IMG/VR virus record: IMGVR_UViG_3300008050_000290
Span: 1 to 25,001 of that record
DNA length: 25,001 nucleotides
Strand: one strand, 5' to 3'
Source: a virus
How positions within the stretch are numbered: the stretch's first letter is position 1; each line of letters starts with the position of its first letter. This document shows, in pieces, positions 1 through 25,001 of the stretch. The position numbers and the translations under genes were made by a program. The notes under the pieces were generated by a model, which saw only the letters and a list, made by a program, of their open reading frames with translations, did no database searches and was not told the origin of the DNA.

Positions 1-231
1 GTAAGAGATAGGATAACAGAGCCTTACTATACTTATCGTTATTGTCTTAACATTAGAGATATTAAGTCTGTAAGAGATAGGATAACAGGTTCTTATTATA
101 CGTACCTATATTGCAAGTATATCAAAGATATTAAGTCTGTAAGAGATAGGATTACAGATTCTTATGATGCTTACCTGTATTGCAAGTATGTCAAAGATAT
201 TAAGTCTGTAAGAGAGAGGATAAAAAAATGA
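1..231 (+). CDS. C-terminal part of a 23-residue-repeat protein (cut by window edge)
   Basis: An open frame runs from base 1 to a TGA at 229-231, giving the last 76 residues of a protein whose start lies outside the window. It consists almost entirely of three complete 23-residue units (bases 19-87, 88-156, 157-225). Each has a Tyr-rich half ending in YC and a charged half built on DIKSVRDRIT. The same unit makes up most of the next gene, so this is a tandem paralogue. Its stop codon overlaps the ATG of that gene (ATGA), which suggests translational coupling. I do not recognise a named family. Similar Tyr-rich tandem repeats occur in other phage proteins as far as I recall, and an alpha-helical repeat fold is an inference. 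Function unknown. Confidence 0.8.
   Translation, partial: VRDRITEPYYTYRYCLNIRDIKSVRDRITGSYYTYLYCKYIKDIKSVRDRITDSYDAYLYCKYVKDIKSVRERIKK
19..225 (+). repeat. Three in-frame 69-bp coding repeats
   Basis: Three consecutive 69-bp units encode 23-residue repeats. A further 18 bases of a preceding unit are visible at the window edge. The units keep codon-level similarity, for example the repeated stretch ATTAAGTCTGTAAGAGA, which suggests recent expansion rather than ancient repeats held only by protein selection. Confidence 0.9.
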
Positions 232-3498: not shown

Positions 3499-3903
3499 TT
3501 TATAACTGAAAGCTACTGCACCTAGAAACCTAACTGCCATATAATACTTATATGCTCTAGCACGTCTCAACCCCTTTAAAAACCATACGCTATTATTCTC
3601 TATTAGCGTATACATATTATCAAGCATTCTGCTGTCTGCAATAGAGCGAGTTTCATCATTACCACCTATATAATAATCATGGTCATGTGGTAAGCTAGAT
3701 GCACTAATATCTAAACCATAAACTGTATTTGGTATAAGCCAGTTATAGAAGTGACCATCAGCTCCTATTCCATTCCATATACGCTTCAAACTTGCTTGAC
3801 TTTCATTAACAAACTCAAAGGAATACTTTAATCCCATATCTCTACAGCAAGAACGCCAGTTTAATATCTCAAAGCGATTATTAAATGTCAAGTACTCTAC
3901 CAT
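3490..3903 (-). CDS. Small protein with phospholipase A2-like HDxxY motif
   Basis: A 137-residue protein whose centre carries YGLDISASSLPHDHDYYIGG. The HDxxY pattern (His73, Asp74, Tyr77) is the active-site signature of secreted and parvovirus phospholipases A2, and a glycine-containing stretch (NGIGADG, residues 44-50) precedes it where a calcium loop would be expected. A second conserved-looking stretch, IADSRMLDNM (88-97), follows. I recall related small phage proteins with the same order of motifs, but no proven function. It could act on host membranes during lysis or entry; this is inference. It has no signal peptide. Its start overlaps the stop of the 44-residue gene before it, and its end overlaps the helicase end by 9 bases. 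Confidence 0.55.
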   Translation of the reverse strand: MVEYLTFNNRFEILNWRSCCRDMGLKYSFEFVNESQASLKRIWNGIGADGHFYNWLIPNTVYGLDISASSLPHDHDYYIGGNDETRSIADSRMLDNMYTLIENNSVWFLKGLRRARAYKYYMAVRFLGAVAFSYKSK

Positions 3904-4031
3904 TTTTTTACTTCTTTCCCATATTTGTTATCAACAAAAAACTGCCCAACGCTTGGACGCATTAAAACATGTTCCCCAATTTTATATTCAATTTCCTTAA
4001 TTATCACATCTTTAATTATCTTGACTAACAC
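3897..4031 (-). CDS. 44-residue hypothetical protein, GTG start
   Basis: A short frame between the lipoprotein and the HDxxY gene, running from a GTG at 4031-4029 to TAG at 3899-3897. AGAGGTGG just upstream of the GTG is a good ribosome binding site, and it lies inside the end of the lipoprotein gene, which the new gene overlaps by 20 bases. The stop overlaps the ATG of the next gene, as elsewhere in this operon. The product is small, basic and soluble, with EYKIGEHVLMRPSVGQFFVD in its middle, which could be a single small beta fold. It may begin instead at the internal ATG (residue 24). Function unknown. Confidence 0.55.
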   Translation of the reverse strand: MLVKIIKDVIIKEIEYKIGEHVLMRPSVGQFFVDNKYGKEVKKW

Positions 4032-11620: not shown

Positions 11621-11650
11621 TTAAAGGTCTCCTATATTCGTGTCTCTATT

Positions 11651-11678
11651 AATATATCATGCTAACTTGATTTTTCAA
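11651..11678 (-). promoter_or_regulatory. Promoter for the fibre genes (P3)
   Basis: Read on the - strand, TTGAAA (11678-11673) is followed by 16 bases and TATATT (11656-11651), with TG two bases before the -10 hexamer (TGATATATT). It lies in the 65-base gap before the lectin fibre gene. The same arrangement occurs at 22744-22771 and 24911-24938, which argues against chance. Confidence 0.7.
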
Positions 11679-11680
11679 GT
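11665..11680. repeat. Dyad overlapping the -35 of P3
   Basis: The perfect inverted repeat ACTTGA-4 bases-TCAAGT contains the -35 hexamer of P3. It shares the 11-mer TTGAAAAATCA with the dyad at 22759-22777. On the + strand it is followed by GTTTTTT, so it could also act as a weak terminator in that direction, although no + strand gene is present here. Confidence 0.6.
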
Positions 11681-11685
11681 GTTTT

Positions 11686-12744
11686 TTATGGTAATTCAAA
11701 TTTATCTAAGTATGGTGAATAGTCTAATAATGAATAAATCATCTTAAATGGTATTATGCTATCAGACCTAACATCTTCATTTAATCCTAAACTATGATTA
11801 ATAAACGCTAAGTTTGGTTCATTCCAATATTCTATCCAATCACTTGAACTTAACCCAGTGTTTTCTAAAGGCCTATTGGTCCAATCAAACCAGTCAACTT
11901 GATAATACATATCTTCTTGATATGAGCTTTGATGATAATCAGCGTTATTGCTACTTGATAGAATAATAGTACCAGTATTATCGCAATGTGTATATTTACT
12001 GCAATAGTCACGGTTAGAGTATCTTTCCCAAGAATCATTAAGTTTGATTCTCATTGAAATAAACGCCCACTTTGTTTTTCCTAAACCATTCTTATACTTA
12101 CTACAAGAGCTTTGTAAGTAATCACGAGGAATACTATCAGAATATGGCATTGCAAGGAAGTTGGCTAGTGCCTCTGCATAAGTTAAATCTTCATTATAAT
12201 CTGATTCGTATGCTCTCTCTTGTAATTGAGAATATAATGGTTGAAAACCAAGCCTTTGTATATTACAAGGATATAGGAATCTATTAACCAGATTCAAATA
12301 GTTAAAACGCTCTTTCAACCACTCATAAGTAATAAATAATTCAAATTCACTTTGCCAACCTGGAATATCCAGCAATATCAAAGCCTTGTCATCTCTAAGC
12401 ATATATTCTTTATAATGTTCAGTAAAAGGAGATGTGTTTAGTTCTGTTATAATATCACTTAATTCTTTATCATCTCTAACCCAACCTAACTGATAAAGTC
12501 TGTCAGTTGCATCATAATAACTTCCTAAATTGCCAACTAATTCCCAACATCTAACGTTTAACACTTCATGTTCAGCACTAAAAAAAAGTGAATTATCTAG
12601 GCGTTTAAAACGGTGTTTATTAGCTTCAAAAGGATTATTTGGATAATAAGATAAGCCACGCTCATATCCTGCATACCTTAGTTCATCATAAGCATGATTA
12701 ATTGAATAAAGTTGTTTATTGCTATAATCATAATTCCAACTCAT
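11686..12744 (-). CDS. 352-residue tail-region protein, no recognised family
   Basis: An acidic, aromatic-rich protein (many Tyr, Trp, Asn and Ser) with no signal peptide, membrane segment or familiar motif. It starts at an ATG with AGGTAGGTTTAT upstream and overlaps the end of the preceding tail-tip gene by four bases. It stops 65 bases before the lectin fibre gene. Position between the tail-tip proteins and the fibres suggests a baseplate or tail-tip component, or an adaptor linking fibres to the tail. That is inference only. The alternating hydrophobic and polar pattern does not point to a fibrous shaft. Confidence 0.7.
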   Translation of the reverse strand: MSWNYDYSNKQLYSINHAYDELRYAGYERGLSYYPNNPFEANKHRFKRLDNSLFFSAEHEVLNVRCWELVGNLGSYYDATDRLYQLGWVRDDKELSDIITELNTSPFTEHYKEYMLRDDKALILLDIPGWQSEFELFITYEWLKERFNYLNLVNRFLYPCNIQRLGFQPLYSQLQERAYESDYNEDLTYAEALANFLAMPYSDSIPRDYLQSSCSKYKNGLGKTKWAFISMRIKLNDSWERYSNRDYCSKYTHCDNTGTIILSSSNNADYHQSSYQEDMYYQVDWFDWTNRPLENTGLSSSDWIEYWNEPNLAFINHSLGLNEDVRSDSIIPFKMIYSLLDYSPYLDKFELP

Positions 12745-13277
12745 ATAAACCTACCTGCAACCTGCAATACATCTTTAGCATATTGTTGTATTTTAGAAAC
12801 CTTACTGTCAAGACAATTAACATAAGCAATAGGGAATATCCACTTATCAACATCTAAGGCAAGAACACTTTGCGTTATGTATTCTGCAACATACGTCTCT
12901 TCAACATCATCCCAAGTGACTTGAACGCATATATAACAGTTGTCTGTTATTTCTATTTGAGTAGTATATATAGTTAAGGATTCATCCCCAATTATAACAA
13001 TATTTGCATGGTCTACCCCGTCAGTATCAGCTCCCAAAACCTTAATATTAGTATCATCAACTTTTATAACTTTCCAAGAGTGTGAAGATGAAGCAGGACT
13101 ACTTGCAACACTTCCACCATGCTTCTTAACGCACTTAAATGTGCTTCCACTAGCTAAGCGTTTAACTTTGATGCTTGGCGACCCCATAGGTGTAATAGAG
13201 TGCATATAATCTACTAACAGATTATGGTGTTTAGCTTCTATAGGTCTTCCTGCACTTACTTTTGGTGGTAGTTTCAT
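12741..13277 (-). CDS. Tail-tip/baseplate-type protein
   Basis: A 178-residue protein. It begins KLPPKVSAGRPIEAKHHNLL, matching a recurring N-terminal pattern in phage tail-region proteins (a short Pro/Gly segment and then a helix ending in a conserved Asn), and continues as a beta-rich domain. The ATG overlaps the stop of the upstream gene (ATGA), and the gene ends four bases into the next one. No enzyme motif is visible. A structural role at the tail tip is inferred from position after the tape measure. Confidence 0.65.
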   Translation of the reverse strand: MKLPPKVSAGRPIEAKHHNLLVDYMHSITPMGSPSIKVKRLASGSTFKCVKKHGGSVASSPASSSHSWKVIKVDDTNIKVLGADTDGVDHANIVIIGDESLTIYTTQIEITDNCYICVQVTWDDVEETYVAEYITQSVLALDVDKWIFPIAYVNCLDSKVSKIQQYAKDVLQVAGRFI

Positions 13278-14155
13278 TCTGCGTTTATCCCATTTGGATT
13301 TTTAGTTGGACTAGTAGATACATACTCATATAAATCATCATCCCACCCATATTCAGCATAAGTAAGTCCTAAAGTAACTTGCCACATCTTATCCACTAGT
13401 TGTATTGAGCCATCAGTAACAAGCCAACAATCATCATAATCGGGAAGCCCAAAAGTCTCTTTAGGATTCCATAACTTATTAATTTGTTTAAGGAAGTCTC
13501 CTGCACGCTTAGGCGTGTCAACAAACCCTGTACCCTGTACCACAGGAGCAGAATTAAGGAATGCTTCAATTTGTGGTTTAGTTCTAACCTTATACAATTC
13601 CCAAGCATAAGATGTTCCATCATCTGTAATAGGTGCAGGTGTTTCCTCTGCAAAACCATACTTATTCTCAAATGTTGCTGGATAATCAATAACACTCTCA
13701 CAGTTAAGCCACTGGTCATCTGCGGTGCTAGTTTGTGCATCTGTATCTGCATGTGCTTTAAGGTAATACATATCGTAATTCCAATTGCACAAATACCCCT
13801 TGTTTTTAAGCAATTCTTGCTCCATTACACCAGCAGTCATAGTCCATTGCATATCTGCATTATTAGGGTTTAAAACGCCTCCTACAATGCTATTATCAAC
13901 GTATGGCATCTTAGATACCATGGATACAGTTACCCAAGTTTGTGCTGGTGATGGTTTTATTCTAATTTCAGCAACAGTACATTTGTCATATTGTGGGAAG
14001 TTCTCATTATAATAGTTCTGTCCTACTTTAGGAATCTCTCCAATCATACTAATATGATACGTCCATGAAGTATTTACGGTCACACCATCTACACCAACCA
14101 TGTATTCAGGATAACCTTTATTCTCAAAAGGTTCAAAAGGTTCAGATAAACTCAT
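13274..14155 (-). CDS. Tail protein directly after the tape measure (distal-tail candidate)
   Basis: A 293-residue protein rich in Trp and Tyr, beta-rich with some helices. Its ATG overlaps the tape-measure stop (ATGA) and has GGGGGT upstream. In siphoviruses the gene just after the tape measure usually encodes the distal tail or a tail-tip protein, so this is the best candidate. I see no specific motif of the distal tail family and the assignment rests mainly on gene order. Confidence 0.6.
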   Translation of the reverse strand: MSLSEPFEPFENKGYPEYMVGVDGVTVNTSWTYHISMIGEIPKVGQNYYNENFPQYDKCTVAEIRIKPSPAQTWVTVSMVSKMPYVDNSIVGGVLNPNNADMQWTMTAGVMEQELLKNKGYLCNWNYDMYYLKAHADTDAQTSTADDQWLNCESVIDYPATFENKYGFAEETPAPITDDGTSYAWELYKVRTKPQIEAFLNSAPVVQGTGFVDTPKRAGDFLKQINKLWNPKETFGLPDYDDCWLVTDGSIQLVDKMWQVTLGLTYAEYGWDDDLYEYVSTSPTKNPNGINAE

Positions 14156-16302
14156 ACGTATACCCCCATTTGATTTTGCGTTTCTATCTTATCGTATATC
14201 TGCTTCAAAAGAGCATTTCTTTTCTTATCTAAATCTATACCCAGCTTTACCCCTGTAGTCCCAACAAATCCACCAATCCTAGACAAGGAATCACCCCTAA
14301 ACATGGATTTCTTTGTTAATTCTGCAATTCCAGATGATTGAGCATCTTTTATTTTATTCTCATATATACTTAAAGCATCACGTGTTGCCCTTTTACGCTC
14401 TTCCTCTGTAAGTGATTTTCCTTTTACTTTTTCCAAATCGTACAATTTCTTTTTGACAAGATATTCTTTTTCAGACATTTGCAACTTCTTCTTATTCCAA
14501 GTAGCTTCCTCTGACAAGAGGTCAAGCATATTCTTAAAGTTTTCAATCTTTAATTTATCTGCTTTTCTTTCTTTTTCTGTTCTAGTAATATCATCTTTTT
14601 TCTGCTTCATTTCACCTTTTAGCGCTCTCTCTTCATCAATCAATGCCTTTGCCTCTTTTAAAGCTTTAAGGTAGTCTTTTGAATGCTTTTCAACGCCAGC
14701 TGATATTAATTTCTTGCTCACTTTAGATAAGGCTTCATAATTATCTCTAACATCTGTGCCATACTTAGCTTCTGTTCTAAGCAAGGCAACATCCTTTTCT
14801 TTTGCACTAATGATGCTGTCAATATCTTCTTTTCTCTTTTTTATTGCGTCTTCACGTATTTTTATATTTAATTTTTCTGCATCATTTTTAGCTTTTATTG
14901 CCTTTATTTCTTTGTTTCTTATGTCTAATGATTTCAACTGTGACTTAATAAATTCACGAATAAATTCAACACTCTTAACCCTAACCATCAACATAGCTTC
15001 CTCGTAGATTTTACGTTCTCCGTCAGACTTAGCTGTACTATGTCTATATTCTAGTTCTGGTTGAACTCCTTGATGTAAGGCATTGACTTCTTTGAGTGAA
15101 CCAATAACCCTACCAAGATTAGTGTCAAATCTGGTGTAAGTATTAATCAACTCTTCACCAAAAACAGGCAAGGATTTCATACCAAGAAGTGTTGTGTCAA
15201 TTAATGACAAGCTATCTTCACCTAAAGCAACAAGTGGTTTTGTGATGGCACTACCCATCTCTGCACCTGCGTTTTTGATTTTAGCAGATAAAGCATCCCA
15301 TCTTGCACCCTCTTGCTCGAAGTACTTCTTGCTAGCTTCATTCATTGCACCTGTAGCTGTTGCAACATCATACAAATCTTGTTTAGCTTCCTTTGCTTTA
15401 CTGCCGACAAGTGCCATTGCACCAGTAATACCCCTTGTATTCTCAATAAGTTTAGAAAACACTTTATTGTCTCTACCAACCTCTTGATAAAGCCCTTGCA
15501 TAATATCTTGCAAACTTAAACCAGCAATGCTTGCTTGATTATAAGATTTAGCAACATTATTCAAGCGGTCAGATAATTCTGCACTAGGTTTTAATAATTT
15601 AGTTAGGATAGCTCTAATGTATGTAGAAGCGCTTTCGGTTGAAGCACCCTGTCTTGTCATTGTAGCTAATGAAGCGAGTGTAGATTCATAACTAATGCCA
15701 AGTTTAGCAGCCAAAGGTAAAAATTTACCTACTTGCCCACCAAGTTCTTCAAAGTGAGTTTTACCTTTTTTAATTGTCATAAAATACTTATCAGATATGC
15801 TTTCGGCATCAGAAACCGACATATTATAAGCATTAATAACAGTAGTAAGTGCATCAGATGAAGTCCTAACAGTAGAAACTCCTGCGAGTGATGCCCTTGT
15901 AGCAATATCCATAAAATCAGCAACACGTGATAATTCTATCTGTGCAGATATGGCTTCATAAGTACCATCAGTAACATCTGTTAATGATTTACCATACTTA
16001 CTAGATAAGGTGATAAGACTACCACCAAGTTTATCGATATTTGCAGATGTTGTGTCTGCTATAGTAGCTATTTCTCCCATAGCTTTAGAAAACTTCAATC
16101 CCAAACTAATGCTTTCGCTAAATGCTGATTGCAGTCCCTGAAGAACTTGGAAGCCTGCATACATGAATGCACCACGACCGAAAGAAGAAGCCATACTAAC
16201 CCCAAATCTCTTAGCACTTCTCTTCAAGTCATTTAGTTTAGCTTTCATTGCAGTTGTGTCAGCATCAAAAGTTGTTACTAATCTGTTCTTATAACTTGCC
16301 AT
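14152..16302 (-). CDS. Tape measure protein, TP901-type core
   Basis: A 716-residue protein that sets tail length and is ejected with the DNA. Residues ~60-340 match the TP901-type tape-measure core (for example TVINAYNMSVSDAESISDKY and LGISYESTLASLATM with the Gly-rich turns typical of the family). Residues ~440-640 form a long charged coiled coil. At the usual 1.5 Å per residue the tail would be roughly 105-110 nm, an estimate only. It starts at ATG 16302, inside the last 14 bases of the frameshifted chaperone product, with only a weak ribosome binding site, so coupling to that product's translation is likely. Confidence 0.9.
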   Translation of the reverse strand: MASYKNRLVTTFDADTTAMKAKLNDLKRSAKRFGVSMASSFGRGAFMYAGFQVLQGLQSAFSESISLGLKFSKAMGEIATIADTTSANIDKLGGSLITLSSKYGKSLTDVTDGTYEAISAQIELSRVADFMDIATRASLAGVSTVRTSSDALTTVINAYNMSVSDAESISDKYFMTIKKGKTHFEELGGQVGKFLPLAAKLGISYESTLASLATMTRQGASTESASTYIRAILTKLLKPSAELSDRLNNVAKSYNQASIAGLSLQDIMQGLYQEVGRDNKVFSKLIENTRGITGAMALVGSKAKEAKQDLYDVATATGAMNEASKKYFEQEGARWDALSAKIKNAGAEMGSAITKPLVALGEDSLSLIDTTLLGMKSLPVFGEELINTYTRFDTNLGRVIGSLKEVNALHQGVQPELEYRHSTAKSDGERKIYEEAMLMVRVKSVEFIREFIKSQLKSLDIRNKEIKAIKAKNDAEKLNIKIREDAIKKRKEDIDSIISAKEKDVALLRTEAKYGTDVRDNYEALSKVSKKLISAGVEKHSKDYLKALKEAKALIDEERALKGEMKQKKDDITRTEKERKADKLKIENFKNMLDLLSEEATWNKKKLQMSEKEYLVKKKLYDLEKVKGKSLTEEERKRATRDALSIYENKIKDAQSSGIAELTKKSMFRGDSLSRIGGFVGTTGVKLGIDLDKKRNALLKQIYDKIETQNQMGVYV

Positions 16303-16938
16303 TTCTCTTATCTTTCAGTTTTTGTAAGATTTTAGAGTAGTCTTTTTTGCGACCTACCCCCTCAACCCCTTGTTCTTTTCTCTGAAGTGCGAAATAAAAA
16401 CTAGCTTGAGTTAATGGCATCTCCCATAAGATATATTCGCTAGAACACCCTGTAGCTGGTGATATCACAGCAACTACTAAGGCTAACCATTCAGCGTCGA
16501 ACTCTCTTTTTTTTTTCCAGTACTAACACCCTCTACACCTATCATATCAGCCTCTGATGCCTTACCTGGCAGTAACTCAAACCCACTCAACGCCCATTGT
16601 AACGCTTGTTGAACCTTATGACTAGTCTCAATCAAATCAAAATTACCTAAACACTCACTCCAATCAAGAACATTATTAGTGAACGCAGTCTTTTTTCCAC
16701 CTGTTTTGATATCTGCTAATAGTGGTAAGCATTCTTTTTTGTTCGCCATTATATATAGAGCTTCCTCTGTGTCATATAATGATGCCTCCATCATCTCACC
16801 GAACACATAAGGACTACTAACAATCTCTAATAATGTAAGTGTAGCAGTAGTAGGAGGAGGAATTTCTATGCTATTAACATAGAAACTGCTCCCCAAGAAT
16901 GATATTGATTCACTGTCAATTTTTTGTTCTTCATTCAT
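16289..16938 (-). CDS. Tail assembly chaperone, G-T-like frameshift product
   Basis: Reading of the G-like gene slips back one base in the A10 run at 16516-16507 and continues in the -1 frame from AGA (16507-16505) to TAA (16291-16289). This adds 72 residues to the first 144, for about 216 in all. The extension begins REFDAEWLALVVAVISPATG and ends in a Lys-rich tail before the tape-measure start. Its Trp/Leu-rich helical beginning and its position are those of lambda gpGT, the frameshifted chaperone that recruits tail tube and tape measure. The -1 frame is open with no start codon of its own and would otherwise leave a 180-base gap. Strong inference from layout; not shown experimentally. Confidence 0.8.
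16483..16938 (-). CDS. Tail assembly chaperone, G-like unshifted product
   Basis: A 151-residue protein (the 0-frame product) directly before the tape measure and after the tube-type genes, the position of lambda gpG. The last ten codons read KKKESSTLNG, with KKK encoded by the A10 slip site and the final seven codons specific to the unshifted form. Most ribosomes would end here, giving the more abundant short chaperone; a minority would make the 216-residue form. The RBS AAAGGGG before the ATG contains the TATATT-like stretch, which I do not read as a promoter. No other family motif was recognised. Confidence 0.8.
   Translation of the reverse strand: MNEEQKIDSESISFLGSSFYVNSIEIPPPTTATLTLLEIVSSPYVFGEMMEASLYDTEEALYIMANKKECLPLLADIKTGGKKTAFTNNVLDWSECLGNFDLIETSHKVQQALQWALSGFELLPGKASEADMIGVEGVSTGKKKESSTLNG
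16507..16516 (-). promoter_or_regulatory. A10 slippery site for -1 frameshifting
   Basis: On the - strand the frame-0 codons are GGA AAA AAA AAA GAG. This provides an A-AAA-AAA heptamer on which two tRNAs can re-pair one base back. Slipping leads directly into a 72-codon open -1 frame. I see no obvious strong stem within the first ten bases after the site; a possible hairpin lies further downstream. Confidence 0.8.
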
Positions 16939-16969
16939 AATATACCCCTTTTTTTATTTAAATCACCAA

Positions 16970-17314
16970 TTAAGGATTAGTAGGAACACCTATAACAGTG
17001 TAACGTTTAAGCGTTAATCCTACGCTTCTAAATCCAGTATTAGTCTCATTATCAGTAACATTCATAATAGCAAAATTGTTAGCATCAATCAGTATAGTAT
17101 CACCTGCAACAGGAACAGAAGTCTCTGTATCGAATACATACTCACATGAGATGTCTGTTGATTCATTATACAATTCTTGAACAGCAACATTACCTTTTGC
17201 ATTTTGAGCAACTGCTTCATCAGTATTAAATGTTCTATTAAAATTCTGCAAAAGACCATAAGTCCCTTCTACCATTCCAGTCTCACCATCTACGCCAAAT
17301 GAATAAGTAGCCAT
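16970..17314 (-). CDS. Tail-tube-position protein (small beta-barrel, paralogue B)
   Basis: A 114-residue beta-rich protein directly before the tail chaperone, where the tail tube gene is expected in siphoviruses. It shares the motif VAGDTILIDANNFAIMNV with the neighbouring 108-residue gene and with the connector at 18738-19055. At this size it would be among the smallest tube proteins, so tube or joining protein is the fair call. AAAGGAGGTAGAA is a strong ribosome binding site. A 31-base gap separates it from the chaperone start. Confidence 0.6.
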   Translation of the reverse strand: MATYSFGVDGETGMVEGTYGLLQNFNRTFNTDEAVAQNAKGNVAVQELYNESTDISCEYVFDTETSVPVAGDTILIDANNFAIMNVTDNETNTGFRSVGLTLKRYTVIGVPTNP

Positions 17315-17329
17315 TTCTACCTCCTTTTA

Positions 17330-17656
17330 TTAATTATATACAACGAAATTCTCATCATCCATGCGTTGCAATGTGCAACTACCACGCTGATAATCACTTT
17401 TATTTTCTTCTGTCTCAACTGATAAAACCAAGAACTCAACAGCATCTATTGTAACAATATTACCTGCCGAAAGAATAGCACCTCCTGTAATAAGTAAAAA
17501 CTGATAACTTAATGACTTAGTTTTGGTGTAAGCTACTGTTTGAATGGCTTTACCTTGACTATCCCTAGCTGTTTCTACTTCAACTGCATCAGATGAATTT
17601 AAAGCTAAAAAAACACCTACAGCATTTTCTGTTGTTCTACCAAATTGTAAAGCCAT
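17330..17656 (-). CDS. Tail-tube/joining-type protein (small beta-barrel, paralogue A)
   Basis: A 108-residue protein related to the next gene: SAGNIVTIDAVEFLVLSV aligns with VAGDTILIDANNFAIMNV in the neighbour. Two similar small proteins next to each other in the tube position suggest a duplication, with one copy as tail tube and the other as a completion or joining protein. CAGGGGTAACAG precedes the ATG. There are only 3 bases to the upstream gene and 15 to the downstream one. Confidence 0.6.
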   Translation of the reverse strand: MALQFGRTTENAVGVFLALNSSDAVEVETARDSQGKAIQTVAYTKTKSLSYQFLLITGGAILSAGNIVTIDAVEFLVLSVETEENKSDYQRGSCTLQRMDDENFVVYN

Positions 17657-17659
17657 CTG

Positions 17660-18061
17660 TTACCCCTGATAATATATTGTTGTTATTGTTGTTAATACTT
17701 GATAATCATCGTTATATTCCTCTTGTACTTCTTCCATGACTATAGCATCAATTCCTAATTCAATAGGTAGAACTTCACTCATATCCTCAAGCAAATTCTG
17801 AATGTCATTATGGATATTCTCTAAGTCAAACTGTGATTCATCATCTTGAGTATATGTAACGCATGAAAAATACACCTTTGATGAGAATACAGTAGGTAGA
17901 TTCTCATAATAAATTGGCCTGTCAACCTTGATACTAATGCAAGGGAAAGCCTTTAAGTTACTGTTATCCCAATATCCAAACACTGGTGCAATAACAGTCT
18001 TATTTGTATCTATATAATTTATTAAGTTATTCTGTAATTTTTTTGTTACATTCTCTGCCAT
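17660..18061 (-). CDS. Tail terminator/completion-type protein
   Basis: A 133-residue protein with an N-terminal helix followed by a beta-rich region, and an acidic helical stretch (residues ~80-100). Size and position between the gp10-like protein and the tube-type genes match siphovirus tail terminators such as lambda gpU, which cap the tail before it joins the head. No signature residues were recognised; the assignment is by order. Its ATG lies within the end of the upstream gene, a 16-base overlap, after AAGGGTAAACA. Confidence 0.55.
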   Translation of the reverse strand: MAENVTKKLQNNLINYIDTNKTVIAPVFGYWDNSNLKAFPCISIKVDRPIYYENLPTVFSSKVYFSCVTYTQDDESQFDLENIHNDIQNLLEDMSEVLPIELGIDAIVMEEVQEEYNDDYQVLTTITTIYYQG

Positions 18062-18738
18062 TGTTTACCCTTATCTCGTTTAAGTATTGCATACTCTTTT
18101 CGCAATCTCCTATTCGTTGAAGCTAATGCACTCTGCCAAGCAGTATATCCATAAGTCTTAGATGTAATATCTTCAGTTTTATTCTTAATGACAATATGCT
18201 TTCTTGTGCCTAAGAAATTAACCCTAGTGTCATTTAACTTGCCTATAATAGAGCTTAATTTCCCCTTGTTCACTATGTTTCTATCAGCAGGCTTAATGAT
18301 ACGCCCTTTTACACTATAACCTATCTTAGATGACATCGCCCACCAGCCAGCTCTACCTGCTCCGTGATACTGCTTCTTCCTGTATCGTGCCAAACTACTT
18401 TTATCTCTCGACCATCTATAGATATAGGATTTCCCCTTTGGAGAACCACCACGAAACCCTTTCTCATCGTACTTACTGTCTGCATATCGTGGTCGTGATA
18501 TAGTAACCCTATAAACAGGCTTACTGCTTCTTCTACTGCCACCTTTACTAGGTTTAACAGTTTTTATCTTCCTGAACTTAGACTTACTTGTTGCTGTTTT
18601 TTTAACAGCACTTTGGTTGAAGTACAAAGCTCCAATACGTAAAATATCTTTTTGTTTTACTCCTAAGTCATGTTCAAATAGCTTAAACCTATCCCTAAGT
18701 TCTTCACCTACTAATCTAACATTGACTTTCTTACCCAT
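18046..18738 (-). CDS. HK97 gp10-like head-tail/tail completion protein (basic)
   Basis: A 230-residue very basic protein (many Lys and Arg), longer than the usual 120-160 residues of gp10-like proteins. It starts with the amphipathic VRLVGEELRDRFKLF and a helix LGVKQKDILRIGALYF, the usual N-terminal pattern of HK97 gp10 / minor tail proteins, and continues with a long Gly/Arg/Lys-rich middle (GGSRRSSKPVYRVTISRPRY). Position between the connector and the terminator fits. The start overlaps the previous stop by one base (TAATG). A DNA-contacting role is possible from the charge, which is inference. Confidence 0.6.
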   Translation of the reverse strand: MGKKVNVRLVGEELRDRFKLFEHDLGVKQKDILRIGALYFNQSAVKKTATSKSKFRKIKTVKPSKGGSRRSSKPVYRVTISRPRYADSKYDEKGFRGGSPKGKSYIYRWSRDKSSLARYRKKQYHGAGRAGWWAMSSKIGYSVKGRIIKPADRNIVNKGKLSSIIGKLNDTRVNFLGTRKHIVIKNKTEDITSKTYGYTAWQSALASTNRRLRKEYAILKRDKGKQWQRM

Positions 18739-19055
18739 TATATATACTTATCGCCTAAAGCTATCTTAATTGCTACATTAAAACTATCATATTCTGTGTT
18801 AATTACCCTGTATTCAATACCATCTACTGTAATCAAATCGCCTGCCACTGGAGCTGTAACACCCTCAAAATCTGCAACGTTCCCTATTACGCTGAACTTA
18901 TAACCATTGCTTAATCCATATTCAGAATAAACAATTTTTTCATTCAATACAGTTCTAGTGCCAATATAACTTATAGTATCATGAATAAATGTCATTGGCA
19001 TTTGGTCTAATAAGTTATTGAATGTTTCTGAAAAAGCTTCTAAATTTAAAGCCAT
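18738..19055 (-). CDS. Head-tail connector/stopper-type protein
   Basis: A 105-residue protein just after the capsid gene. The frame extends to 19091, but that ATG lies within the terminator stem; the ATG at 19055 has AAGGGA upstream and is the likely start. The C-terminal half carries VAGDLITVDGIEYRVINT, the same beta motif as in the two tube-type genes nearby. Position, size and motif suggest a lambda gpFII-like connector or stopper. Confidence 0.6.
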   Translation of the reverse strand: MALNLEAFSETFNNLLDQMPMTFIHDTISYIGTRTVLNEKIVYSEYGLSNGYKFSVIGNVADFEGVTAPVAGDLITVDGIEYRVINTEYDSFNVAIKIALGDKYI

Positions 19056-19069
19056 AATAATCCCTTTAT

Positions 19070-19127
19070 AAAAAACCTCCCCTTGCCTCATGCCAGAAAA
19101 AAGGGAAACACAAGAGGCAAGGAAAGG
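19070..19127 (-). terminator. Rho-independent terminator after the capsid gene
   Basis: On the - strand, CCTTTCCTTGCCTC (19127-19114) pairs with GAGGCAAGGGGAGG (19089-19076). The stem has 14 pairs, 12 Watson-Crick and two G·U, with a 24-base loop. Six T residues follow (19075-19070). It lies between the capsid gene and the connector gene and should reduce, but not abolish, tail gene transcription. Confidence 0.85.
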
Positions 19128-19144
19128 AAAATGAAATAAGAAAC

Positions 19145-20041
19145 TTAAGGTGTAGAGAAACCGTCTAGTAATACTTTAGCTCCACTGTTCAATATCTTAG
19201 GTTGATACCAAGCAGTACAGTCATAGTTATTCGTTTTATCTATATCAGAATAAAACGATTCTATCTCAAATGGTTGCTCTCCATCAGGTAAATAAACCAT
19301 AGTTCTACCAAGAACAGGGTCTAATTTGTGCGAGAACTCTGTTGCTTCTGGAACCTTAACTAATGCAATAGTATCAGCATGCCCTGTTACAGCCCAATGG
19401 TCATCATCACCAATAAGTAACTCATCAACACCAAACATCCCAGAAAGCATTGATTTTAATACAACAGGTTGCATTGATAATACATCAGAAGCATTCTCTA
19501 ACTTCCAGCCATTAAAAGCCATCTTAGAAGTAATTTCAGTTTGCTGGATAGTCCAACGGAAAGCAGAATAAGACATAACAAGAGTTAATTTACCTGCATA
19601 ACGTTTTACTTGTTTTCCAGCATCAAGAATACCATCTATAATAGCAGTAGATACATCAGTACCATCTCCATCAATAACAGTGCCAGCAATAGAATCTTCC
19701 ATAGCACGTAGAACAGAACGCTTAGAAGCTACAGCACCAAGTCTATCAACAATAGCAATTCCACCCATTTGTTTCTCTTCAGATTTAACAACGCCATAAC
19801 GTTGAATTGCTTCTGCAACTGTATAAGAAGCAGAAGAATCTGTTAATAATGTACGTGTAGGTGCAACACCTGCAACACGTCCTACTTGAGCTGCTGCATC
19901 AGCTGTAATAGTTTTATACAAGAATGTACCCGACTTTTCTGCAACATTCAATGTAGGCAGAACTTTTCCTCCAATATAAGATTCTGGAGCATTAACTTCA
20001 ATGGCCTCTAAATCTCTACGTCTTCCAGTGATAGTACTCAT
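19145..20041 (-). CDS. Major capsid protein (HK97-type fold)
   Basis: A 298-residue protein in the capsid position after protease and portal. PTLNVAEKSGTFLYKTITAD (residues ~29-48) resembles the N-arm/E-loop region of siphovirus capsid proteins. AIVDRLGAVASKRSVLRAME and LTLVMSYSAFRWT fit the spine helix and P-domain of such proteins, though motif recognition here is by general pattern. No separate decoration (gpD-like) gene lies between protease and capsid, which are two bases apart. GAGAGGAGAATAGT is the ribosome binding site and lies over the protease stop. It is followed by a strong terminator, in keeping with very high expression. Confidence 0.85.
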   Translation of the reverse strand: MSTITGRRRDLEAIEVNAPESYIGGKVLPTLNVAEKSGTFLYKTITADAAAQVGRVAGVAPTRTLLTDSSASYTVAEAIQRYGVVKSEEKQMGGIAIVDRLGAVASKRSVLRAMEDSIAGTVIDGDGTDVSTAIIDGILDAGKQVKRYAGKLTLVMSYSAFRWTIQQTEITSKMAFNGWKLENASDVLSMQPVVLKSMLSGMFGVDELLIGDDDHWAVTGHADTIALVKVPEATEFSHKLDPVLGRTMVYLPDGEQPFEIESFYSDIDKTNNYDCTAWYQPKILNSGAKVLLDGFSTP

Positions 20042-20042
20042 A

Positions 20043-20900
20043 CTATTCTCCTCTCATGTAATTTTCGTAAGCTTGTGGGTACTTAGTACGAGCTTCTACA
20101 TAGTCATTACTGCACTTATGTAGAGCATCTTTCCAGTTGTTTATTTCTGGTTCGACTGTGAATCCACCTGCCAACACTTTTTGTAATTTATTTTGATACT
20201 CTTCAACAGCATTATTCAATTTATCATTATCCGATTGCATTTTAGAAATGAGTTCATCTCTTTTCTCAACCTTAGAGTTAAGGTTAGAAATATCATCCGA
20301 ATATGATTCAATTTTATTTTGTAGTCCTGATATTGCTTCCATTGCCTTAAAGTCAGATTGAATGTTATCTAACTCAACACCTTCACCAATGAAATTGTCA
20401 ATAATCTCATCACATAAGCCAAGTGCTAATGCCTCATCTGCCGTAAAAACAGTCTCTTTATCCATGTAATCTTTGATTGCTTCAACATCAATTTTCATTT
20501 TATTTTTATAAATATCAACAATAGAATCTCTCATTTTGTCAAGTGTATCAGCTGTTTTTCTCAAATCATCTGCTTCACCACAACCAGATGAACAATGAGG
20601 ATTATGTATCATCATAAAAGAGTTTTTAAACATTTTAACCGTTTTACCTGCCATAGCTATAATAGACGCCATACTAGCCGCCATTCCCTCAATAACAACA
20701 GTAACATCCTTGTCAAGTGCTACTAGATTATTGTACATAGCTAAACCTTCAGTAATAGAACCTCCATTGGAATTAATCTTTAAAGTTACATCGCCCTCTA
20801 TTGAGTTAAATTCATTCATGAATGATGTATAATCAACATCTTCACCGATACTTCCATATATCCTAACCTCGTTACCCTTCATTGCGTACCACTTCTTCAT
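20043..20900 (-). CDS. ClpP-type prohead protease with scaffold-like coiled coil
   Basis: A 285-residue protein. Residues 1-170 show the ClpP/S49-like serine protease fold: INSNGGSITEGLAMYN (42-57), GMAASMAS (72-79) with Ser76 as nucleophile, MIHNP with His99, and KETVFTADEALALGLCDE with Asp147 as third triad member. Residues ~190-245 form a strong coiled coil, as in lambda C/Nu3 where protease and scaffold share one reading frame, so this protein may also serve as scaffold. The gene overlaps the portal by 29 bases; AAGGAGG precedes the ATG. It matures the prohead before packaging. Confidence 0.9.
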   Translation of the reverse strand: MKKWYAMKGNEVRIYGSIGEDVDYTSFMNEFNSIEGDVTLKINSNGGSITEGLAMYNNLVALDKDVTVVIEGMAASMASIIAMAGKTVKMFKNSFMMIHNPHCSSGCGEADDLRKTADTLDKMRDSIVDIYKNKMKIDVEAIKDYMDKETVFTADEALALGLCDEIIDNFIGEGVELDNIQSDFKAMEAISGLQNKIESYSDDISNLNSKVEKRDELISKMQSDNDKLNNAVEEYQNKLQKVLAGGFTVEPEINNWKDALHKCSNDYVEARTKYPQAYENYMRGE

Positions 20901-22377
20901 TTACAGCCTCCTTTTGGTTTAATATGTCTAATGGTAATTCATTATCTTTTATTATTTTATATTCTTTAGCTAGTTGCTTAACTTGGTCTTCCCAAGTAGC
21001 ACCTAATACCTTAGAATAAGTTTCTAAGCCAGCATCAAGAGCTTCCTTGTGTGCCTTAACCTCTTTAAGAGGGTCAACTTGAGGCATTTTAGGAAACTGC
21101 CAAGAAATCATTTCACCCCAATTTTTAGGTAAATATTGTATTTTCCTTTTTCTCATAGCCCAAGAAAGAACTCTTTCTGCAACCCAATCACACAACCTGC
21201 GTTCAATCCATTTTTGATTTTCATAAAAAGTAGCCCAAGCCAATAACATATCACCCCTAAAAGCAGTGTAACTACCTGCTGGTGTTAGTGTTGTGTAGGA
21301 CTTACTTAATCCCATACCTGCACCAGCACAAACTTGAACAAATTCAAAGAATTCTTTTGTATTTAAATTAGGCCTATTAAAATCAAGTATCTTGAAGTCT
21401 TCCTCTGGATTAAGGTATTCCATATAACCACCAGTCATAGATTCAAGGCTATCGTATGATTCTTGAGGTTCTGTATTTGTAACAGTATCCTCTTCTAATA
21501 TATCATCGGGAATATCCCCCCCCCTCATAATAACTTCTTCTTGAGCGTTCTTCTTAGTAACAACTCCTGCGAAAGATGATGCAACCTTAGCAGATTGCAA
21601 CTCCTTAGTTCTCATCTCGTATATATCTTCTAATTCAGACGAAGCAGTAATGATATCAGAAACACCACGTGTTTGATTGAACCTAAAAGGTCTTTTAAGT
21701 AGCTTTGCTACGTTTTTAGGCAAGATGGTTACATCGTCCCAATCTGCATACCCCATGCCATGTTGGCCTGTAACTACGTATGCCTTAACACGTCCCTTAG
21801 AGTCTGTAATAATTCCATTGTTCTGCACTAGTGGAATCTTTCTGCCAGCCTTAATTTCGAACCATCCATTTTCAACAGATTTAGCTTTCCAGTGTGCTTC
21901 GTTTATCATTACCAGTTGGTCAGATTCAAACCAAAGTAATTTTCCGTCATCCTCATCAAAATCATCAAAAACACAAAGGCAATCATGTTCCCTTTTTACA
22001 GCCGTAACAGCATTTTGAAGCATTTCGCACCAATGCATGTCATCTCTTGAATCACAATCCTTAGACCAAACAGAGTTAAAGTAATGTTCTACAGCTCTAT
22101 TTAATTCATTGTCATCAGAATTAAACTGTAATTTCCCCAAAGAACCAATAACATTTATCCTGAATTGATTCAACATTGACTTAGCCGTAGAGAAATTACG
22201 TTCTAAATCACGTCCAATATTAACAGCTTTAAGTCTATCATAATTCTTGAAACCATCGTCTTCATTTTCAAACTCAACAATAGCTTTACGGCGGTGCTTC
22301 TCATGTGCTGGATTAACTGCATCATAAGAGTTCTTATACTCTTTATCATTTTTCTTTTTTTTATTAAAAAATATCAT
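20872..22377 (-). CDS. Portal protein, lambda gpB family
   Basis: A 501-residue portal, which forms the dodecameric DNA channel at one capsid vertex. The sequence carries the lambda-family pattern: KNYDRLKAVNIGRDLERN near the N terminus, FNQTRGVSDIITASSELEDI in the middle, and a wing/clip region rich in Trp (WIERRLCDWVAERVLSWAMR). Length is typical of the family. It follows a gpW-like joiner by a four-base overlap and is followed by the prohead protease, as in lambda (W-B-C). The N-terminal FFNKKKKND is unusually basic. Confidence 0.9.
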   Translation of the reverse strand: MIFFNKKKKNDKEYKNSYDAVNPAHEKHRRKAIVEFENEDDGFKNYDRLKAVNIGRDLERNFSTAKSMLNQFRINVIGSLGKLQFNSDDNELNRAVEHYFNSVWSKDCDSRDDMHWCEMLQNAVTAVKREHDCLCVFDDFDEDDGKLLWFESDQLVMINEAHWKAKSVENGWFEIKAGRKIPLVQNNGIITDSKGRVKAYVVTGQHGMGYADWDDVTILPKNVAKLLKRPFRFNQTRGVSDIITASSELEDIYEMRTKELQSAKVASSFAGVVTKKNAQEEVIMRGGDIPDDILEEDTVTNTEPQESYDSLESMTGGYMEYLNPEEDFKILDFNRPNLNTKEFFEFVQVCAGAGMGLSKSYTTLTPAGSYTAFRGDMLLAWATFYENQKWIERRLCDWVAERVLSWAMRKRKIQYLPKNWGEMISWQFPKMPQVDPLKEVKAHKEALDAGLETYSKVLGATWEDQVKQLAKEYKIIKDNELPLDILNQKEAVNEEVVRNEG

Positions 22378-22583
22378 GAGAAATCCGGTTTGGTTCGAGT
22401 GTTAAAGTGATGCAATCGATAAATCTTACTTCTGATTCTATCGGCTTCTGCATTTAATTCTTTGAGTGTAGGATTGACAATCTTGTGCGAGTTGAATATT
22501 GTGTATTCTTGACCTGTCTTGTAGATTTCAATAATCTTAGATTCAACTGCTACAAGCTGTTCTTTTAGGGTTGTCAAACTCAT
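22374..22583 (-). CDS. gpW-like head-tail joining protein
   Basis: A 69-residue protein, the same length as lambda gpW (68 residues). Two helices flank a short beta hairpin: TTLKEQLVAVESKIIEIYKT, then TIFNSHKIVNPTLKEL, then AEADRIRSKIYRL. It lies between the terminase and the portal, as W does in lambda. gpW joins the portal to the tail-completing proteins. ATGA overlaps connect it to both its neighbours. Confidence 0.8.
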   Translation of the reverse strand: MSLTTLKEQLVAVESKIIEIYKTGQEYTIFNSHKIVNPTLKELNAEADRIRSKIYRLHHFNTRTKPDFS

Positions 22584-22720
22584 CTAGTTGCCCATTTCTG
22601 TTTGCACCCAGTGCATTCGTAGTACTTTAGAAGCCTATTTTTATGAGTTTCTATAGATTTCTTACCACATTTTATACATGGATTAGATATAACAACAATT
22701 TTTTTAGTGCTTTTTTTCAT
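22580..22720 (-). CDS. 46-residue zinc-ribbon protein with its own promoter
   Basis: A short gene between large terminase and gpW, starting at ATG 22720 with AGGAGAG upstream and stopping in the start codon of gpW (ATGA). It has two CxxC pairs: Cys15/Cys18 (NPCIKCGKK) and Cys36/Cys39 (YECTGCKQK), i.e. a zinc ribbon with basic flanks. A promoter stands 24 bases upstream, so it is the first gene of the head transcription unit. Zinc-ribbon proteins of this size include regulators such as Mu Com, which is only an analogy. Function unknown; RNA or DNA binding is plausible. Confidence 0.8.
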   Translation of the reverse strand: MKKSTKKIVVISNPCIKCGKKSIETHKNRLLKYYECTGCKQKWATR

Positions 22721-22730
22721 ATTTAAAACT

Positions 22731-22743
22731 CTCCTATAAGGAG
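22731..22743. repeat. Dyad next to the -10 of P2
   Basis: The inverted repeat CTCCT-ATA-AGGAG directly abuts the -10 hexamer at 22744-22749, spans the expected transcription start and partly covers the ribosome binding site of the zinc-ribbon gene. It could be an operator or a structure hiding that site. A comparable dyad lies after the -10 at 24899-24909. Confidence 0.55.
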
Positions 22744-22771
22744 AATATAGCACATCTTAATGATTTTTCAA
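22744..22771 (-). promoter_or_regulatory. Promoter for the head genes (P2)
   Basis: On the - strand, TTGAAA (22771-22766), 16 bases, TATATT (22749-22744), with TGC directly before the -10 (extended -10). It reads into the zinc-ribbon, gpW, portal, protease and capsid genes. The match in hexamers, spacing and TGN to P1 and P3 supports a real promoter class. Confidence 0.8.
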
Positions 22772-22777
22772 ATCATT
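22759..22777. repeat. Perfect 8-bp dyad overlapping the -35 of P2
   Basis: AATGATTTGAAAAATCATT (- strand) is a perfect inverted repeat with eight-base arms and a three-base centre. It lies directly after the terminase stop codon and covers the -35 hexamer. No T-run follows on the - strand, so it is not a terminator for the terminase transcript. It may be an operator. Confidence 0.7.
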
Positions 22778-24505
22778 TTACGAAGTATGTTTTATTTTTT
22801 TTCTACTTTTTTGTGCTTTTTTACTATTTTTACGTTTTATATTGGTAATTATGTATTCCTTAATAACCAAAAACATCTTCTCACAATCGAAAAAGTGGTC
22901 TTTCCTGCTAACAGAAGACCAGTTCTCATAAGCATCACCGTTCTTAACCTTAATATCTGGTTGAACATCTATTAGTTGATTAACATATACATCCTTAACG
23001 TCACTTGGTATATAAAAGTAATTACTTCCTTTAGCTTTGTGGTTGTACAAGTAATATAATAACTCATTCTGATATACTTTAGGGTTCGCAAGTATCAACT
23101 TACCAGAACTACTGCTTAACCTAAATCTAGCTTGCGTCCTAGAGTTACCCTTATATAAGTAAAGGCCTGCTTTATCTTTTACATAATCAACAATCTCTCG
23201 TGTTCTATGTCCACCACTATCTATAATACCTGCTGTAAGGTGTTCACCTGAATAGATATCATTCCAAACATCGGTTAATGCAGGAGTGGTTTTAGCAATG
23301 CCGTAATCTAATAAGTAGGTGTTATTATTAATATCAATACCCCTAACAATCCAATAAAAACAATCATCTTGAGTATCAACCGAAAGAAAACGATATAGTA
23401 TCTCATTATTAGCTGGATAAGTTGATACCTTATGGTTATATAATGCTTGCTTATGACCTGTCATCTTAGTTCTATTGGAAAATGGTAAACCACGCATGGA
23501 ATTATCAAAAAACATTTGACTTTGTAAATTACTGCTTTTTCCTGCTTTTAGTTGTGCATGAGCTATGTTCTCCCAGGAGAAATATTCCATAAGACAAGCA
23601 AAAGCACCCCACTGATAACCAACATGTTTATCTAAACGCTCTGGGTATCTGTGAATAAAGCCTCCTTTTTGGGTCATTTCGTATTTTCTGGTTTCATTAT
23701 GTTCATGTCCACATCTGGGACATATCAATCTAATGCTATCAATTTCTATACTATCATTTTCGTTCATCTCCCATTGGAGATTGTGAACGTCACAGCTTCT
23801 AATAGTTAATTCATTGCAACCATAACAACGCAAATGCCAGTAACCTTGACTGCTATCCAAAAATTCTTGCCATATCCTGCCTGTCTTTTTAGTTGGAGAG
23901 CATACCTTTGCAAGTATACTCTCACTGAATGAACGACCACGCTTCCTTAGGTCCTGTAAGTTATCAATCCTACCCTCAAAGCTAGCCCAGTCATCAACTT
24001 CATCAGCAACGCATATCTTAGCACTAACAGATGTAACCCTAGAGCCAGACCCCTGAAAGTAACTCTTGAAGTTCGCAAAGTTATAACAGTCTTTTCTAGT
24101 GGTCTTCGGCAATACTAATTCACTAGCTAAGTCTGGAATATTTTGCATTAATGGCTTAATCTTTTGACTATTTATCTCTTCGGCTTTATCATCTGATGTG
24201 TAGCAAATCAAGGATAAACAAGGCATATACTGGAAACTCCAAAGCAGAGGGATTAACCAACTTAATGTCTTTCCCGTCTGCTCTGGAGCTACCACTGTAA
24301 CTTCCCTCTTTTTGCCCCCTAAATCCCAAGAGTTAATAACATCACCTAAATAAGGCGTTAATCCTAAATCAAAGTTAGTCCTTTCAGATGTGACATCCTT
24401 AGAAAAGTTTATGTTTTCCAAGGCCCAATCAAGAGGCTTCTTGAACTTCTTAGGAATCGTCTGCTGGAGTATTAGCCTAGTTGTTTCAATGCTTTGTTTA
24501 TGCAT
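22778..24505 (-). CDS. terL: Large terminase subunit, lambda gpA type
   Basis: A 575-residue packaging motor. The N-terminal ATPase carries a deviant Walker A, APEQTGKT (residues 73-80), and Walker B around VADEVD (166-171). Two CxxC pairs (Cys227/Cys230 and Cys262/Cys265) form a zinc ribbon between the ATPase and the nuclease. The nuclease domain has SVDTQDD (Asp377), IIDSGG (Asp429) and DHFFDCEKM (Asp540) as acidic metal-binding candidates. This architecture is that of the GpA family; the C terminus is very basic (KKAQKSRKK). It overlaps the small subunit by 34 bases, indicating coupled translation. It cuts concatemers, probably at cos-like sites by analogy with lambda; that is inference. 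Confidence 0.92.
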   Translation of the reverse strand: MHKQSIETTRLILQQTIPKKFKKPLDWALENINFSKDVTSERTNFDLGLTPYLGDVINSWDLGGKKREVTVVAPEQTGKTLSWLIPLLWSFQYMPCLSLICYTSDDKAEEINSQKIKPLMQNIPDLASELVLPKTTRKDCYNFANFKSYFQGSGSRVTSVSAKICVADEVDDWASFEGRIDNLQDLRKRGRSFSESILAKVCSPTKKTGRIWQEFLDSSQGYWHLRCYGCNELTIRSCDVHNLQWEMNENDSIEIDSIRLICPRCGHEHNETRKYEMTQKGGFIHRYPERLDKHVGYQWGAFACLMEYFSWENIAHAQLKAGKSSNLQSQMFFDNSMRGLPFSNRTKMTGHKQALYNHKVSTYPANNEILYRFLSVDTQDDCFYWIVRGIDINNNTYLLDYGIAKTTPALTDVWNDIYSGEHLTAGIIDSGGHRTREIVDYVKDKAGLYLYKGNSRTQARFRLSSSSGKLILANPKVYQNELLYYLYNHKAKGSNYFYIPSDVKDVYVNQLIDVQPDIKVKNGDAYENWSSVSRKDHFFDCEKMFLVIKEYIITNIKRKNSKKAQKSRKKIKHTS

Positions 24506-24870
24506 TCTTTAATCCTGTTGTATTCTGCGTCTGTCATGCTTACTTTAGCTAACTCTTTGCGTAATGGAAGCAGTATGCTTGTAACAATTTCCATTACCTC
24601 ACCTTTAAACTCTTCTCTTATTTGGTCTTGTTTTTCTTTTATCTGCTGTTCAATTTTTTGTATTTCAACAGCCATTTTTTTATTCTTAAGAGCTTCATTG
24701 TCTAGTAGTTCTGTAGGTGCAGAATCAGATGGTTTACCTATGTACCAATTACCGTTTCTTTTGAACGATTCCAGGCTGCCACGTTGGCATCTTCGCTGGA
24801 CATTTGTTTCAGTATGAAAACTGCCATCTTTTTTAGGATTAGCCTTAATCCACTGCTTGATAGTAAGCAT
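24472..24870 (-). CDS. terS: Small terminase subunit, lambda gpNu1 type
   Basis: A 132-residue protein with an N-terminal winged helix-turn-helix region (LTIKQWIKANPKKDG, then ETNVQRRCQRGSL as recognition helix region, then NWYIGKP as wing), as in gpNu1, which binds cos DNA. Residues ~55-90 form a coiled coil (KNKKMAVEIQKIEQQIKEKQ), probably for dimerisation, and the C-terminal region would bind the large subunit. AAGGAGG lies seven bases before the ATG. It is the first gene after promoter P1. Confidence 0.85.
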   Translation of the reverse strand: MLTIKQWIKANPKKDGSFHTETNVQRRCQRGSLESFKRNGNWYIGKPSDSAPTELLDNEALKNKKMAVEIQKIEQQIKEKQDQIREEFKGEVMEIVTSILLPLRKELAKVSMTDAEYNRIKECINKALKQLG

Positions 24871-24898
24871 TTTAGCCTCCTTTTTTTCTGGTTAAATT

Positions 24899-24909
24899 CC
24901 CTGTGAGGG
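24899..24909. repeat. Dyad next to the -10 of P1
   Basis: CCCT-GTG-AGGG is an inverted repeat one base beyond the -10 hexamer (24911-24916) and spans the expected transcription start, as the dyad at 22731-22743 does for P2. The arms are short, so the support is modest. Confidence 0.4.
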
Positions 24910-24910
24910 T

Positions 24911-24938
24911 AATATAGCACACTTCTTTATTAATTCAA
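24911..24938 (-). promoter_or_regulatory. Promoter for the terminase genes (P1)
   Basis: On the - strand, TTGAAT (24938-24933), 16 bases, TATATT (24916-24911), with TGC before the -10. It lies 41 bases upstream of the small terminase ATG. Similar in sequence and spacing to P2 and P3. Confidence 0.75.
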
Positions 24939-25001
24939 ACAAAAAAGTTACGTTTCCCAAAATTCTTAAAATTTATTTTTATCATGAGGATGCCCCACCA
25001 C
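24939..25001. other. AT-rich upstream sequence at the window edge
   Basis: These 63 bases upstream of P1 hold no gene I can support. Three short - strand frames enter from outside the window and end here, so the tail of an upstream gene is possible. A packaging (cos-like) site would be expected near here by analogy with lambda but cannot be seen. Confidence 0.3.

Follow-up and report, generated by a model that had tools for sequence, protein, structure and literature searches.

In sigma70 promoters, a TGn motif can make up for weak -10 or -35 elements, and in Gram-positive promoters TRTG is preferred (PMC2613000). A distance of 16 bp between the two hexamers is within the usual range, and the average strength of promoters in a synthetic library was alike for 16-bp and 17-bp spacers (PMC8695583). 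Among phages, the P100-like Listeria phage CKA15 has mapped late start sites that carry TDTGCTATATTA and are devoid of a consensus -35 element (PMC12282133). Here we describe three sites, P1, P2 and P3, that precede putative late genes of an uncultured phage and share a -35 hexamer, a TGN and a -10 hexamer at the same spacing. They lie in three of four sizeable gaps between tightly packed structural genes and are near-identical sequences of the ordinary housekeeping sigma type, which makes it very probable that they are genuine, if conventional, signals for starting transcription of these genes.

Gene layout and non-coding space

The window analysed is the whole virus record of 25,001 bases. 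Genes run off its left end, so it probably represents only part of a larger genome. The putative late genes occupy the minus strand from terS (24870) down to 3490, and a short plus-strand block, with a helicase gene last, lies at the left end. The record is very compact: by our gene set, non-coding sequence totals only 453 bases, and just four gaps exceed 40 bp (11621-11685, 19056-19144, 22721-22777 and 24871-25001). As the record contains no gap that would house an early-gene promoter, it offers no means of showing that a promoter class is confined to late genes. The interval 3904-4011 is probably not a gap, as a 36-aa frame with a GTG start can be read there (3901-4010, minus strand), a probable gene missed by the 50-aa cut-off. 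The plus-strand open reading frame at 1-231, cut by the record end, specifies imperfect tandem repeats (DIKSVRDRI... with YCKYIK-like segments).

Profile matches back the portal, the Clp-type head protease and the tape measure, in addition to the large terminase subunit (Table 1). The 46-aa putative zinc ribbon, located between terL and a gpW-sized gene, has no significant family matches. For the fibre-like protein, the phrog_20787 match covers the C-terminal 41 residues, and the "lectin" label that the gene had been given was confirmed by neither Pfam nor PHROGs. Segments of this protein are found again in more than 200 viral contigs, a recurrence that suggests modular exchange of tail fibres.

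Table 1. Coordinates of the sites, repeats, genes and hairpin discussed in the text
Feature	Position	Strand	Details
P1, before terS	24911-24938	minus	TTGAATTAATAAAGAAGTGTGCTATATT; -35 TTGAAT 24938-24933, TGC 24919-24917, -10 TATATT 24916-24911
P2, before zinc-ribbon and head genes	22744-22771	minus	TTGAAAAATCATTAAGATGTGCTATATT; -35 TTGAAA 22771-22766, TGC, -10 TATATT 22749-22744
P3, before fibre gene	11651-11678	minus	TTGAAAAATCAAGTTAGCATGATATATT; -35 TTGAAA 11678-11673, TGA, -10 TATATT 11656-11651
Inverted repeat over P2 -35	22759-22777	minus	AATGATTTGAAAAATCATT; 8-bp arms, 3-base loop
Inverted repeat centred on predicted +1 of P2	22730-22744	minus	TCTCCTTATAGGAGA; right arm is the Shine-Dalgarno sequence
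Inverted repeat over P3 -35	11665-11680	minus	ACTTGAAAAATCAAGT
Putative terS, downstream of P1	24472-24870	minus	Position only, no family match
Large terminase subunit (TerL, GpA type)	22778-24505	minus	GpA_ATPase and GpA_nuclease matches
Putative zinc-ribbon gene, downstream of P2	22580-22720	minus	46 aa, CxxC-17-CxxC
Putative major capsid gene	19145-20041	minus	By position; 41%-identical counterpart at the same position in L138
Terminator-like 14-bp hairpin, then T run, in gap after putative major capsid gene	19056-19144	minus	-31.1 kcal/mol, z -4.1
Virion/fibre-like gene, downstream of P3	9161-11620	minus	819 aa; C-terminus matches phrog_20787, virion structural protein

The shared elements and their significance

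The original prediction had placed shared elements before terS, the zinc-ribbon gene and the fibre-like gene, and its coordinates proved exact, with all three sites on the minus strand. TATATT and TGN, said to be common to the three, are indeed seen in every one; the TGN directly abuts TATATT and the spacer is 16 bp throughout. Each site thus has the TG one base before the -10 hexamer, and A and T at the second and sixth positions of that hexamer, by which the extended -10 class is recognized. A -35-like hexamer 15-19 bp upstream, which is optional for the class, is present in all three at 16 bp, and the TRTG form is matched by P1 and P2 (two of three sites).

The full pattern, TTGAAW-13N-TGN-TATATT, has three occurrences in the 25,001 bp of the record, each in a gap longer than 50 bp and on the coding strand, which is where a whole-record scan had been expected to find it. 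None of 100 shuffles produced a match, and the record, genes included, holds no further sites with 0 or 1 mismatch. As this pattern was written from the sites themselves, we added a similarity test that presupposes no motif. The best ungapped alignment of the three gaps over 28 columns has 15 identical columns. Not one of 3,000 triples of dinucleotide-shuffled gaps attained this figure (a smaller run gave 1 of 300), nor did any of 5,000 coding triples chosen not to overlap. The consensus-driven pattern TTGANN-(15..19)-TGNTATANT occurs five times in the record vs 0.39 expected in shuffles, three of the five being P1, P2 and P3. When each gap is compared with its own shuffles, a -35/TG/-10 match as good arises in 0.2% (zinc-ribbon gap), 0.1% (fibre gap) and 4.2% (terS gap) of them.

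What distinguishes P1-P3 is their location in gaps together with their mutual identity, not their sigma70 score, which alone would not have singled them out. With a coarse matrix built from textbook percentages, P2 and P3 take ranks 7 and 8 among all positions of the window, and P1 comes at rank 52. Sigma70 matches of equal quality also occur inside genes, and the 15-kb late region contains 59 sigma70-like sites vs 60.7 in shuffles. A fourth candidate, the TATATT just before an ATG in the 16939-16969 gap, was rejected because it lacks a TG and its -35 is poor.

Among phage records, no relative was detected at the DNA level. Scans with the terminase, portal, protease and capsid proteins retrieved relatives of about 38-44% protein identity (maximum about 44%) on GC-richer contigs, and no site of the P1-P3 kind is present in L005/L006 in the gap that follows terL. 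In IMG/VR, TTGAAW-13N-TGTGCTATATT (the TGTGC form) was found in 50 stretches, mostly within genes, several sets of which represent the same coding sequence; the P2/P3-type pattern gave four matches in a scan of the whole collection, all in genes. Because the IMG/VR matches lie mostly within genes, a conserved cross-phage promoter class was dismissed. A search for the host by way of prophages returned a single 22%-identity match in a Telmatospirillum genome and was uninformative.

Probable recognition by the host polymerase and its alternatives

We consider it likely, from the arrangement of their elements, that P1, P2 and P3 are promoters of the -35/TGn/-10 type for the host housekeeping sigma factor (sigma70/sigmaA), whose holoenzyme should be capable of initiating at each of them. 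The -35 hexamer (TTGAAW), the extended -10 TG and the -10 hexamer (TATATT) would each contribute to recognition, with the TG offsetting a non-consensus -10, a -35 that matches at 5/6 (P2 and P3) or 4/6 (P1) positions, and a 16-bp spacer. RNA synthesis would begin about seven bases past TATATT, at approximately 24904 (P1), 22737 (P2) and 11644 (P3), giving leaders of about 34, 17 and 24 nt that carry the Shine-Dalgarno sequences AAGGAGG, AGGAG and AGGAG, respectively, each followed by ATG. Of the two options raised at the outset, a host sigma factor or the need for a phage activator, the former stands, given the ordinary sigma70/sigmaA fit, and the latter finds no backing; the scanned proteins include neither a sigma factor nor a known activator family.

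Several observations nonetheless speak for a phage-specific late class that depends on a phage activator or on a factor modifying sigma, for which the -35 palindromes might be the site of action. The mutual likeness of P1-P3 exceeds what sigma70 requires, TTGAAAAATCA is common to P2 and P3 and lies within inverted repeats, and the three gaps are richer in such repeats than expected, as only 0.35% of shuffles contain an equal number; for the similar -10 elements of phage CKA15, a sigma/anti-sigma switch has been proposed (PMC12282133). However, the -35 palindromes of P2 and P3, perfect as they are, differ in sequence and register, and the -35 of P1 is free of any palindrome; a common operator is therefore unsupported. 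A regulator family is likewise absent among the scanned proteins, though the record may be incomplete, and as all three sites carry a -35 an activator should be unnecessary. We thus regard dependence on such a factor as unlikely. Ogr-type activation, in which a phage P2-type late promoter is served by an Ogr/Delta zinc-finger activator, was rejected because the zinc-ribbon protein lacks family support (no Ogr/Delta-family match at cut-offs of E 0.1 in Pfam and 0.01 in PHROGs).

The dyads CCCTCACAGGG of P1 and TCTCCTTATAGGAGA of P2 are in the same register, both centred on the seventh base past TATATT, and this shared centre could betray a site with another role, such as an operator or a phage RNA polymerase promoter, in place of a sigma70 promoter. 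Yet P3 lacks this dyad, one arm of the P2 dyad is merely the Shine-Dalgarno sequence, the scanned proteins included no phage RNA polymerase, and the combined P1/P2 start-site dyad pattern was absent from a scan of the whole IMG/VR collection; we hold a role of this kind to be exceedingly improbable. It is also quite doubtful that the -35 palindromes of P2 and P3 and the +1 dyads of P1 and P2 would together serve as operators through which an undescribed phage regulator switches the three promoters in concert. Finally, the three sites could be non-promoters that resemble one another by chance in AT-rich gaps, considering that shuffles contain sigma70-like matches as often as the late region does and that the motif was defined only after the gaps had been seen. 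Against this, the observed similarity recurred in none of the shuffled or coding triples, and no in-gene copy with 0 or 1 mismatch exists, which makes coincidence a very improbable account.

Predicted transcripts and comparison with known systems

If P1, P2 and P3 are host sigma70/sigmaA promoters, as we favor, the late transcript would begin at P1, and P2 and P3 would supply extra head and fibre transcripts within the P1 transcript. The proposed division of the late genes into separate units holds in so far as promoter-like sites occur at the three gaps, but probably not in the sense of independent transcripts, since neither P2 nor P3 is preceded by a terminator. Their -35 elements start 6 and 7 bp, respectively, past the preceding stop codons, with no terminator-like element in between, so P2 and P3 probably give rise to nested transcripts, not to separate ones, and are best regarded as boosters inside a longer late transcript. 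The hairpin after the putative major capsid gene is the sole terminator-like one; its gap has no promoter, and the tail genes beyond it have none of P1-P3 shape. This hairpin may trim transcription into the tail genes.

For an uncultured phage, these predictions amount to a testable transcription map comprising three candidate late promoters and one terminator-like hairpin. They also present a clean case of promoters read from sequence alone, by comparing the gaps of a tightly packed genome. The three sites do not indicate a new mechanism.

A stable hairpin in the gap just after the capsid gene is also found in L138 and in the Roseobacter phages CRP-823 and CRP-406, which suggests a recurring, putative capsid-end terminator or mRNA-end structure. 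CRP-823 and CRP-406 differ from our record in that no promoter of P1-P3 shape was found in the stretches searched; the one near match, in CRP-406, is on the opposite strand from a gene region and its spacer measures 17 bp. Among promoters with mapped starts, the closest parallel is provided by the late promoters of CKA15, whose -10 part P1-P3 resemble to differing degrees: P1 fits TDTGCTATATTA in full (TGTGCTATATTA), P2 at 11 of 12 positions (TGTGCTATATTC) and P3 more poorly (CATGATATATTA). The CKA15 promoters lack a consensus -35, whereas TTGAAW is present in all three of our sites. A 49-kb stretch of P100 holds four TGNTATATT sites, of which three are in gaps upstream of genes; TTGAAW is absent 16 bp upstream of the P100 sites. 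With the sigma70/sigmaA extended -10 class (PMC2613000), P1-P3 share the TGN before the -10, a usable -35 and a spacer within 15-19 bp. In E. coli, spacers of at least 18 bp are more frequent among TGn promoters, whereas those of P1-P3 are all 16 bp, a departure that does not set the three sites fundamentally apart from this class.
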